Positions 18,773 through 22,093 of a DNA stretch of 39,669 nt are shown here, one piece after another. The notes under the pieces were generated by a model, which had not been told where the DNA came from, did not search any database, and worked only from the letters and a program-made list of their open reading frames with translations. The DNA is taken from NCBI GenBank assembly GCA_019694755.1, contig JAIBBI010000034.1, positions 1 to 39,669 on the forward strand. The letters are read 5' to 3'. The stretch is from Gemmataceae bacterium (GTDB lineage Bacteria; Planctomycetota; Planctomycetia; Gemmatales; Gemmataceae). Both the position numbers and the translations under genes were made by a program. Each line of letters opens with the position of its first letter. The stretch's first letter is position 1.

Positions 18773-18827
18773 AGTCGGACAGCGGGACTCCTGTTGAGTC
18801 CTGCCCATGTCGAGCGGAGGTCTCATC

Positions 18828-20078
18828 GTGCGCCGCGTCGTTTTTGCCTTGGCCCTTCTGGTCGCCTGTCCCAGTCTCGTGACGGCTGACGATCTGCTTA
18901 CTGTCATCTTCGGTGGGGCCACGGCAGCCCCCGAAAAAGCTCCCAAACTGCCCACCGGTACCCACGAGACTTCCAAGACGATCGCCGTCAAGAGCGACGT
19001 CAAAGGCCTCAAGCTCCAAACTCTCGCCTCGGGCCCCGACGGCAACGTCTACGCCCTGCTCGGGTCTGATCGCTATGGCTCGAAGATCGACTCCGGGGAA
19101 GTCCAAGTTTACGACCCGGCCGGCGAGAAACTGCGCGGCTGGAAGGTCGGCTTTCAGTGCCAGGCGATCAACGTCGCCCCGGACGGCACGGTCTTTGTCG
19201 CTGGCGACGGCAAGGTCGCAGTCTTCGACGCGACCGGTTCCCCCAAGTCGGAACTCGAACTTCCCTTTATCGCCAACGTGCTGAAGGACTCGGAGAAACT
19301 CCGCAAGAAGGCCGAAGACCAGCAGAAGAGCGAAATCCAGTCGTACGAGGAAATGGTCAAGGATTCAAAGAATCAACTCGAAGAGCTGAAGAAGAAAGAC
19401 GAAGAAAAGCTGACCAAGACCGAAAAGGCTCAGATGAAGCAGTACGAGGCCATGGTCAAACAGTACGAGCAGATGCTGGAACGTGAAAAGAAGAAGAAGC
19501 CCGAAGACTATGTCAAGCAGATCGTATCCCGCGTGCGGGTCATCAACGCCGTCGCCGTCACCGAAAAAGACGTGTTCATCGTCTGCGGCGAGACGAAGGG
19601 CTACGGATTCGCCGTATGGCGAACCGACCGCAACTTCGAGAATGGCAAGCAGGTCATGGCGAGCCTCCGCGGGTGCTGCGGCCAGATGGACATCCAGGCG
19701 GCCGGCGACAACCTGCTCGTCGCCCAGAACTGCGAACACAACGTCGGCCGATTCGACCGCGACGGCAAGAAGATCTCGACCTTCGGCAAGCGCGGTCGGG
19801 AGAGCGAACCGGAGTGCTTCGGCGGCTGCTGCAACCCGATGAACGTCCGCGTTGGCCCGGCCGGCCGGGTCTACACCGCGGAATCCGAAGGCATCGTCCG
19901 CGCTTTCTCAGCCGAGGGTAAGCCGGAAGGGATCGTCGGCTCCGTCAAGATCACCGGTGGCTGCAAGAACGTCGCGATTGCCGCGTCGTCCGACGGCAAC
20001 ACCGTCTGGTTCTGTGACCAGCCCGGCTCGAAGATCCACGTGATGACCCGCAAGACGGAAGCGGCCAAGGGCCAATAA
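18828..20078 (+). CDS. Exported NHL-like beta-propeller protein with coiled-coil insert and Cys-rich blades
   Basis: I prefer GTG 18828, because a GGAGGT ribosome site ends seven bases before it; ATG 18807 is the alternative. The 416-residue product has a signal peptide (VRRVVFALALLVACPSLVTA). Propeller-type strands follow (ASGPDGNVYALLGSDRYG, INVAPDGTVFVAGDGKVAVFD). A charged coiled coil (about 152-225) rich in Lys and Glu interrupts the propeller, which resumes afterwards. The second half carries unusual cysteine clusters: RGCCGQMDIQ (283-284), NCEHN (302), ECFGGCCNPMN (330, 334-335), GGCKN (379) and WFCDQ (396). These could bind a metal or form disulfides. It lies 30 bp before the PhnD-like gene, probably the first gene of an operon. 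Function is unknown. Confidence 0.78.
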   Translation: MRRVVFALALLVACPSLVTADDLLTVIFGGATAAPEKAPKLPTGTHETSKTIAVKSDVKGLKLQTLASGPDGNVYALLGSDRYGSKIDSGEVQVYDPAGEKLRGWKVGFQCQAINVAPDGTVFVAGDGKVAVFDATGSPKSELELPFIANVLKDSEKLRKKAEDQQKSEIQSYEEMVKDSKNQLEELKKKDEEKLTKTEKAQMKQYEAMVKQYEQMLEREKKKKPEDYVKQIVSRVRVINAVAVTEKDVFIVCGETKGYGFAVWRTDRNFENGKQVMASLRGCCGQMDIQAAGDNLLVAQNCEHNVGRFDRDGKKISTFGKRGRESEPECFGGCCNPMNVRVGPAGRVYTAESEGIVRAFSAEGKPEGIVGSVKITGGCKNVAIAASSDGNTVWFCDQPGSKIHVMTRKTEAAKGQ

Positions 20079-20108: not shown

Positions 20109-20936
20109 ATGCGTTTCCTGTCAATCGCCGTCGCCCTGTTCGCATCGTTCGCGGCAAGGGCGACCGAACCGACTCTGACCGTCGTGGTCATGGACCCGCT
20201 GGCCCTGCCGCTTTCGTGTCCGTGTGTGAAGGGCTACGCCCAGCGCGACTACGACAAGCTGGGCGAGCACCTCCAGAAGAAGCTCAATCGACCGGTCAAA
20301 GTCGTGTACTCGGAGTCGCTCGTCTCCGCGCTCAAGAACAAAACCGAGGGCAAGGCCGATGTTGTGATCGGCAAGCACTCGGTCGTGCTTCACGACGCGA
20401 AGCGGGCCGGTATTCCATTTACCACGGTCGCGTCGCTGACTGGCAAAGACGGGAAGACAACACAGACGGGCCTGGTCGTCGTTCTGAACGAAGACCCGGC
20501 CAAGTCGATCACCGACCTGAAGAACTACACGATTCTCTACGGTGACATCGAAGCCGAAGAGAAACACGGCGCGGTCATGAAGATGCTCAAGGGCCATCAG
20601 TTCGTGATCCCCGAGAAGCCGGCGACATGTGCCGCCTGCGACGAAGGGGCCACGAAACTCATGGACATGGGTAAGAAGGGTGAGAAAGGCGCGGCCGTGA
20701 TTTCCAGCTATGCCAAGCCGCTCCTCGAAGGGTGCGGCACCGTCCCGAAGGGCGCGCTCCGGGTCGTCGCCGAGACCGACCCGGTCCCGTTCGTCGAAGC
20801 GTTTGTCAACGAAGGGCTCGGCAAAGACCTGCGCGAGGTCATTGTCAAAGCCATCATGGAAGTAGGAGACGATTTGGAGCTCTGTAAGATCCTCGAGACG
20901 AAGAACGGCTTCGTCGCACCGCCAAAAAAAAAGTAG
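20109..20936 (+). CDS. PhnD-like periplasmic substrate-binding protein (short product of a frameshift gene)
   Basis: The 275-residue product starts at ATG 20109 after CAGGAGGA and has a signal peptide (MRFLSIAVALFASFAARA). It resembles the PhnD/SsuA/transferrin type binding fold: LTVVVMDPLALPLSCPCVK, HLQKKLNRPVKVVYS, KADVVIGKH, GLVVVLNEDPAKSITDLKNYTI and FVNEGLGKDLREVIVKA. Cysteines at 37 and 39 (CPC), 174 and 177 (CAAC), 209 and 259 are unusual for the family. They echo the Cys clusters of the preceding propeller protein. The natural ligand is unknown; oxyanions are typical for the family. Its last codons (PPKKK, then TAG) are the slippery sequence that can shift ribosomes into the following PQQ domain, so this is probably one of two products. 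Confidence 0.78.
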   Translation: MRFLSIAVALFASFAARATEPTLTVVVMDPLALPLSCPCVKGYAQRDYDKLGEHLQKKLNRPVKVVYSESLVSALKNKTEGKADVVIGKHSVVLHDAKRAGIPFTTVASLTGKDGKTTQTGLVVVLNEDPAKSITDLKNYTILYGDIEAEEKHGAVMKMLKGHQFVIPEKPATCAACDEGATKLMDMGKKGEKGAAVISSYAKPLLEGCGTVPKGALRVVAETDPVPFVEAFVNEGLGKDLREVIVKAIMEVGDDLELCKILETKNGFVAPPKKK

Positions 20937-20983
20937 TCGTTGACTGGCCCGGCTGGCGCGGCTCCGACCGCGCCGGCAGGGTC
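20924..20983 (+). promoter_or_regulatory. Candidate -1 frameshift / transcriptional slippage signal
   Basis: Nine A residues (20924-20932) followed by G end the PhnD-like frame. In the zero frame the heptamer A AAA AAG (20927-20933) is the dnaX-type slippery site, and TAG follows at once (20934-20936). Twelve bases later a GC-rich stem-loop begins. Bases 20952-20961 pair with 20968-20977 (one G-U) around a six-base loop. After one mismatch, 20946-20950 pair with 20979-20983. A -1 shift joins PPKKK to VVVDWPGWRG, the start of a PQQ propeller. The A9 run could instead cause RNA polymerase slippage, as known for Thermus dnaX. No Shine-Dalgarno-like stimulator is evident upstream. Confidence 0.65.
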
Positions 20984-22093
20984 TCATTTCTCCCAGATAA
21001 ACTCCCCGATCCGAAGAAGCCAATCTGGCGTGTTCCGCTGGCCAGCCCAGGTCTGGGCGGTGTCGCGGCGTCGGCCGGCGTAGTCATCGTCTCCAATCGC
21101 GAACTTCAGGATTCGACCGACGTCTGGCGGTGCTACGATGCCGATACCGGCAACCAACGCTGGTCGATCCGCTACCCGGCCACGGGGCATCTCGACTTCG
21201 GCAACTCGCCCCGGGCCACGCCCCTGATCCACGACGGGGTCGCCTACCTTGCGGGCGCGTTCGGCCACCTGCACGCTGTCGATATTGCGACGGGCAAGAT
21301 ACTCTGGAATCACGACACGCAGGCGGAGTTTGCAGCGCCGGGGGACCTGCCGTGGGGACACTGCGGATCGCCGATCATCGCCGGGGGCCGACTGCTCCAG
21401 TACGTCGGCGGCCCGGATGCCGCACTCGTTGCATTCCACCCGAAAACTGGCAAAGTCGAGTGGCAGACGAAAGGAGCCAGGCCGGGTTATGGCTCACTCC
21501 TGCTCGGAACGTTCGGTGGAGTGGAGCAAGTGATCGGTTACGACGAGTCGACGCTGGGCGGATGGGACGTGGCGACGGGGAAGCGACTTTGGAGCATCAC
21601 GCCCCCGCGGCCCAAGGACTTCAACGTGCCCACCGCTATCGCGTGGAACGACCGGATCGTCGTCAGCACCGAGAACAACGGCACGCGGATGTACCGCTTC
21701 GACGAACAGGGCCGGGCCGTACCGCAACCCGAAGCGACTTTCGGAGAACTTCGGCCGGACACGCACACGCCGGTCCGCGTCGGCGACCGTCTGTTCGGCG
21801 TTCACAACGGCCTGTACTGTCTCGACCTGAAGTCCGGTCTGAAGCCGGTCTGGCACTGGGACGACGAAGCGCTCAGCCATTACACTGCCGCGGTAGCTAG
21901 CGACACGCGGGTACTTCTGATAACCATGCTGGGCGAAGCGATCCTGCTCGACGCGACGGCCGACAAGCCGAAGGTGCTGGACCGAAAGGCAATCGCCGAC
22001 GACGAAAACGGTCTATACGCCCACCCGGCATTCGTCGGCAACCGGATGTACCTGCGCACGGCCGACGCGATTCAGTGTTACGAGCTCAAGTGA
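20933..22093 (+). CDS. PQQ-type beta-propeller domain, -1 frame extension of the PhnD-like gene
   Basis: The frame is open from 20888 to the stop at 22093 and encodes about 386 residues after the slip point. I read every codon to 21520 and found no stop and no ATG, GTG or TTG; the first is GTG 21521, inside the domain. The sequence begins DWPGWRGSDRAGRVS, the usual opening of planctomycete PQQ-propeller proteins. Repeated blade motifs follow: WRCYDADTGNQRW, LHAVDIATGKILW, LVAFHPKTGKVEW and GGWDVATGKRLW. There is no signal peptide of its own. It is therefore best read as the C-terminal half of a 661-residue exported fusion made by frameshifting. The last eight bases overlap the convergent permease gene. 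Confidence 0.7.
   Translation, partial: VVVDWPGWRGSDRAGRVSFLPDKLPDPKKPIWRVPLASPGLGGVAASAGVVIVSNRELQDSTDVWRCYDADTGNQRWSIRYPATGHLDFGNSPRATPLIHDGVAYLAGAFGHLHAVDIATGKILWNHDTQAEFAAPGDLPWGHCGSPIIAGGRLLQYVGGPDAALVAFHPKTGKVEWQTKGARPGYGSLLLGTFGGVEQVIGYDESTLGGWDVATGKRLWSITPPRPKDFNVPTAIAWNDRIVVSTENNGTRMYRFDEQGRAVPQPEATFGELRPDTHTPVRVGDRLFGVHNGLYCLDLKSGLKPVWHWDDEALSHYTAAVASDTRVLLITMLGEAILLDATADKPKVLDRKAIADDENGLYAHPAFVGNRMYLRTADAIQCYELK

Follow-up and report, generated by a model that had tools for sequence, protein, structure and literature searches.

A planctomycete gene is probably recoded by programmed slippage at a conserved A8/A9 run to give a PhnD-like protein and its fusion with a beta-propeller

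The DNA analyzed here is a 39,669-nucleotide stretch from a Gemmataceae bacterium (the window), in which the reading frame of a PhnD-like protein (20109–20936) ends in zero frame as CCA AAA AAA AAG TAG and a PQQ-type beta-propeller follows in the -1 frame. Comparison with homologous loci indicates that this gene is almost certainly recoded and that transcription is likely to be the main step of the recoding. The explanation that we favor, and consider likely, is that one gene uses programmed slippage to produce two exported proteins at a fixed ratio. The features of the locus are as follows.

18807–20078, plus strand: exported NHL-like propeller protein containing a coiled coil plus the motifs CCGQMD and CCNPMN; a homologue is conserved directly upstream in relatives.
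20109–20936, plus strand: PhnD-like exported substrate-binding protein, the short product of 275 aa in zero frame (PF12974, 5e-16, and homologues).
20924–20932, plus strand: A9 run, putative slippage site, with the heptamer A AAA AAG inside at 20927–20933; A8 or A9 lies at the equivalent junction in 60/60 -1-frame relatives.
20934–20936, plus strand: TAG stop of the short product, immediately after KKK.
20941–20943, plus strand: TGA, a third-frame stop at which A8 or A11 transcripts would terminate (PPKKSSR*); near third-frame stops are enriched in relatives.
20933–22093, plus strand: PQQ-type beta-propeller part, encoded in the -1 frame and lacking its own start codon, which adds 386 residues downstream of the shift (PF13360, 3e-41; 47% identity to a single-frame fusion along its entire length).
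20946–20983, plus strand: RNA hairpin of 5 bp, a mismatch and 10 bp, a possible local stimulator that is not conserved in most relatives.

In the proposed mechanism, RNA polymerase would slip at the A9 run. Translation of transcripts with nine A would end at KKK-TAG and yield the free 275-aa PhnD-like protein, those with ten (or seven) A would be read into the propeller and give the 661-aa fusion, and those with other run lengths would stop within a few codons and thereby give the short form as well. The ratio of the two products would be fixed by slippage. In terms of function, we infer an envelope complex in which the binding protein occurs in free and tethered forms, the tethered part being held to the propeller as a scaffold.

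The sequence was re-read at the junction, and the description in the first-pass annotation proved exact to the base: the A9 run is followed by G at 20933, A AAA AAG lies in zero frame, and TAG is adjacent. The -1 frame is open from 20888 to 22093 and its earliest ATG, GTG or TTG is the GTG at 21521, as had also been stated, and the claimed sizes of 275 residues and, for the predicted fusion, 661 residues were both reproduced. The junction run is the sole run of at least eight A in the window, where 0.13 would be expected, and pattern searches of the draft assembly (5.64 Mb, 335 contigs) found just 12 runs of at least nine A.

The identities proposed for the two protein parts, PhnD-like and PQQ propeller, were borne out by matches to the Pfam families Phosphonate-bd (5e-16) and PQQ_2 (3e-41). 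The PhnD-like protein carries an N-terminal signal peptide, read by eye as MRFLSIAVALFASFAARA, and four invariant cysteines. Its membership of the PhnD/PtxB family rests on sequence matches (PF12974, 5e-16; 5jvb, 6e-12), and by the NCBI models TIGR01098 and TIGR03431 it scores too low for true PhnD, so that binding of, or specificity for, phosphonate should not be assumed; no ABC permease or transport ATPase was found among the neighboring genes whose domains were checked. The fold of the C-terminal domain is BamB-like by fold comparison, and the propeller scores far below the equivalog cut-offs for BamB and PQQ dehydrogenase. For L117, a fused relative, the AlphaFold model consists of two confident domains, and its sole internal stretch with pLDDT below 50, residues 254–265, contains the KKK at 258–260. 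According to this model, the A-run encodes a flexible linker joining the two domains, in which case the short and the fused products would both be folded proteins. Almost every large locus (the cluster comprises 39 loci) has a homologue of the NHL-like gene immediately 5' of the PhnD-propeller gene and in the same orientation, and the two genes probably share an operon. The NHL-like protein itself has a long coiled coil and the double-cysteine motifs GCCGQMD and GCCNPMN, and falls in no named family.

Homologue searches through the family, relatives and phylum, plus 84,980 species, yielded 101 distinct loci. In 60 of these, all from Planctomycetota, the -1 frame carries the propeller, and the PhnD frame ends in A8 in 15 of them and in A9 in 45; this count includes L095 and L106, which the script had put in another frame downstream and which were assigned by reading the junction. 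Single-frame fusions with no run of eight or more A at the junction make up 31 of the 101 loci (including L162, which has an in-frame TAG), and the remainder consists of three single-frame loci with A10, one single-frame locus with A8, two +1-frame loci with A8 or A10, and four loci with no readable propeller. The first-pass annotation had asked for homologues with either single-frame fusions or conserved A-runs, and both are present. The association between an A8/A9 run and the -1 state gives a Fisher value of 5e-21 when the kinship of the loci is ignored, and since the loci are related by descent, such raw p-values overstate the case.

The single-frame fusions occur in several classes, and one of them (G127) is a 724-aa open frame with 47% identity across residues 19–660. 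Their existence indicates that the complete product comprises PhnD and propeller fused together. The three A10 in-frame loci (L041, L115 and L117) each branch from within groups of A9 relatives, and A9 at these loci would give KKK-TAG; the A10 genomes are relatives and do not correct the window sequence to a single frame. A tree built from 97 loci requires 9 to 11 changes between the recoded state and the fused one. The recoded state is widespread, and judging from this tree, exchange between recoding and plain fusion appears to have occurred several times. The first-pass proposal that one gene gives two exported proteins is therefore strongly supported at the level of sequence, by the A8/A9 runs of the -1 loci, by the existing fusions and by the nesting of A10 within A9 clades.

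Several properties of the junctions bear on the mechanism. No recoded locus has a run shorter than eight A, and runs of six and seven were never seen, whereas A AAA AAG requires only six. In 41 of the 60 loci the run is lengthened to A9 by an A in the third position of the preceding codon, a position at which A is found in 15% of cases elsewhere in these genes. The lysine codons within the run are AAA, and the share of AAA among lysine codons elsewhere is 38%. Three phases of the run occur among the -1 loci, one of them dominant, the following base varies, and the last codon at the run may be AAG, AAC or AAA. The direction of the shift is not uniform either, as the A10 loci are in frame and L099 is in +1. 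The median distance from the run to the first third-frame stop is 3 codons; the corresponding values are 27 within the same genes and 64 for the fused homologues. When the loci were thinned to 33 below 62% identity and the fusion-frame codons were shuffled, a third-frame stop within 10 codons was found in 22 of 33 loci against 12.9 expected (p ~0.001).

The dnaX genes of the same genomes were also considered. In the window genome, dnaX (L171, G000:C145) has A10 at 53067–53076 on the minus strand, the ATPase frame stops 13 codons further on, and tau is continued in the -1 frame; this gene is of the slippage type of the GeneTack survey. Among the compared planctomycetes (L231–L259), 26 dnaX genes were readable, and 24 of them have an A9/A10 run at the gamma/tau boundary, mostly in frame as in Thermus. 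By analogy, these runs make productive slippage by the polymerases of these organisms plausible. The dnaX genes of the Gimesia-like genus g51 contain A9 and A10 runs a few codons apart (L254, L255, L258 and L259).

The E. coli RNA polymerase slips weakly on A8, and the A8 loci would depend on a slippage-prone polymerase or on a ribosomal contribution; every run of at least eight A also holds a ribosomal slippery heptamer. In Deinococcus, A8 is regarded as productive (PMC1088944). In an earlier survey, A-runs longer than seven were treated as slippage sites, and measured frameshifting climbed with run length, from 10% at 7 A to 40% at 9 A and 63% at 11 A (PMC3711429).

Programmed -1 frameshifting by the ribosome at A AAA AAG, helped by the hairpin, would yield both proteins from a single mRNA, and we consider this unlikely, though it is the best placed of the alternatives. 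A correctly phased heptamer and an immediate stop are present in most loci, and in the window the zero-frame X XXY YYZ heptamer at 20927–20933 is followed, as claimed, by a stem of 5 bp, a mismatch and 10 bp after 12 bases, at 20946–20983. The fold of this hairpin is strong (-33.7 kcal/mol, z -3.6), but it begins 12 nt past the heptamer and is not conserved. Downstream folding shows a slight surplus in recoded over fused loci (mean z -0.89 vs -0.18, p 0.028), and no upstream folding signal was found in recoded loci with the fused homologues as a control. A conserved stimulatory structure at ~5–8 nt was not found, given the 12-nt spacer and the mean z of -0.89 across loci, and no SD-like element was seen by eye before the run in the window gene. 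Because downstream folding is only slightly above that of the fused controls, the hairpin is best regarded as a local feature that may help and not as a conserved signal. The first-pass title placed its emphasis on the heptamer and hairpin; both exist, but they are less conserved than the homopolymer length and the double stops.

Other observations argue against a ribosomal shift. Runs of at least eight A are always present where six would suffice, the phase and last codon are inconstant, and L099 and the A10 in-frame loci would require an opposite or zero shift. Since a -1 ribosomal shift never enters the third frame, the early third-frame stops are left unaccounted for. E. coli has no tRNA-Lys(CUU), which contributes to the working of its dnaX heptamer, as AAG is held weakly. 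In the window genome, tRNA-Lys with both UUU and CUU anticodons is present (CTT in L209), contrary to the absence of tRNA-Lys(CUU) expected for a shift of the ribosomal kind. Three sequence features expected of the Thermus dnaX kind, namely a conserved homopolymer of about eight or more, double stops, and independence from phase and direction, were all found. The runs of at least eight A, their varied phase and next base, the double stops, the tRNA-Lys(CUU) and the A9/A10 runs in dnaX together suggest that the gene is recoded by slippage during RNA synthesis. The preference of the first-pass annotation for slippage over a classical ribosomal shift is supported by the conservation of homopolymer length and of stops in both other frames.

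The remaining alternatives are less probable. Phase variation, in which replication slippage would toggle the genomic run between A9 (short form) and A10 (fusion) from cell to cell, is very unlikely: the relatives do include both A9 and A10, but switching would be expected to scatter lengths and states, whereas 60 of the 66 A-run loci are in one -1 state and one clade is uniformly A8 in the -1 state across many species. Even more improbable is the production of two separate proteins by reinitiation at the propeller. GTGA overlaps occur at two loci (L023 and L024), but 46 of 53 -1 loci have no ATG, GTG or TTG in the interval from the run to the propeller's W..WRG motif (7 of 53 do), no homologue was found whose propeller has its own start and signal peptide, and single-frame fusions exist elsewhere; an independent propeller start was rejected on the lack of start codons in most loci. 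Sequencing error or a decaying pseudogene, which a homopolymer in a draft assembly might suggest, is refuted by the identical state of 60 independent loci, single-contig genomes included, in which both parts are kept as protein at ~43–60% identity and which are therefore not pseudogenes.

To our knowledge, well-supported cellular genes with transcriptional slippage are few, dnaX being foremost among them, and most cases are insertion sequences. The PhnD-propeller gene is similar to Thermus thermophilus dnaX (PMC1088944, PMC5009743) in its A9 run, its predicted transcriptional slippage to products that differ at the C terminus, and its near-run stops in both non-fusion frames. It differs in being another gene with exported products, and in having the short product in zero frame, where in Thermus it is the long one. 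The two-ORF dnaX cluster with A7–A10 (Antonov et al. 2013, PMC3711429), to whose kind the window genome's own A10 dnaX belongs, likewise has a -1 break at an A-run and needs slippage for the long product, but encodes an unrelated protein, and the PhnD-propeller genes have A8 or A9. E. coli dnaX, with its -1 ribosomal frameshift, shares with the window gene the heptamer A AAA AAG, the lysine codons and a downstream hairpin; the differences are a run of 6 compared to 8–9 in the PhnD-propeller loci, the distance and conservation of the hairpin, and the tRNA-Lys(CUU) of the window genome. The magnesium chelatase fs-genes are also cellular genes with a -1 break, at A7–A11, and fused relatives, and longer A-runs gave them higher frameshift efficiency when assayed in E. 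coli (PMC3711429); they belong to another family that is not exported, and slippage in the PhnD-propeller gene is a prediction from sequence. The literature found on planctomycete slippage consists of the GeneTack survey, which covers two planctomycete genomes and whose main text does not mention the PhnD-propeller gene. The gene thus appears to be a new case among programmed-slippage genes, no earlier report having been found.

More broadly, we lean towards the view that Planctomycetota use polymerase slippage as a standing tool beyond dnaX: a phylum-wide envelope gene would be kept broken at A8/A9, the polymerase would set the ratio of free to propeller-tethered protein, and this state would be exchanged repeatedly with plain fusion. 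If true, this would provide a conserved, non-mobile and exported example of slippage across a phylum, and the roughly 100 natural variants (A8, A9, A10 and plain fusion) would form a series for measuring run length, phase and context against product ratio. In many planctomycetes, a real fusion is likely to be annotated as two genes or labeled a pseudogene.

Individual loci and other A-runs gave minor observations. At L087 and L099 the propeller lies in the +1 frame. With its A8, L087 would give the fusion at A7 or A10, whereas L099 carries A10 and would do so at A9; both states fit slippage but could also be assembly slips. L162 (G472) has an in-frame TAG ~9 bases past the PhnD domain, with no A-run and no ATG, GTG or TTG between this TAG and the propeller, and is a single odd case of readthrough, mutation or error; a second recoding route through this TAG was rejected, as other members of the same family whose frames stay open over a long distance are plain fusions. 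In the window genome, in-frame A9 runs are found mid-gene in a TPR-like protein (L174, G000:C169:6978-6986, minus strand) and in a VgrG-like spike (L178, G000:C297:16004-16012), where slippage would shorten part of the product. Finally, L143 and L148 are stand-alone PhnD-like paralogues without a propeller, and the recoded gene is present in the same genomes.
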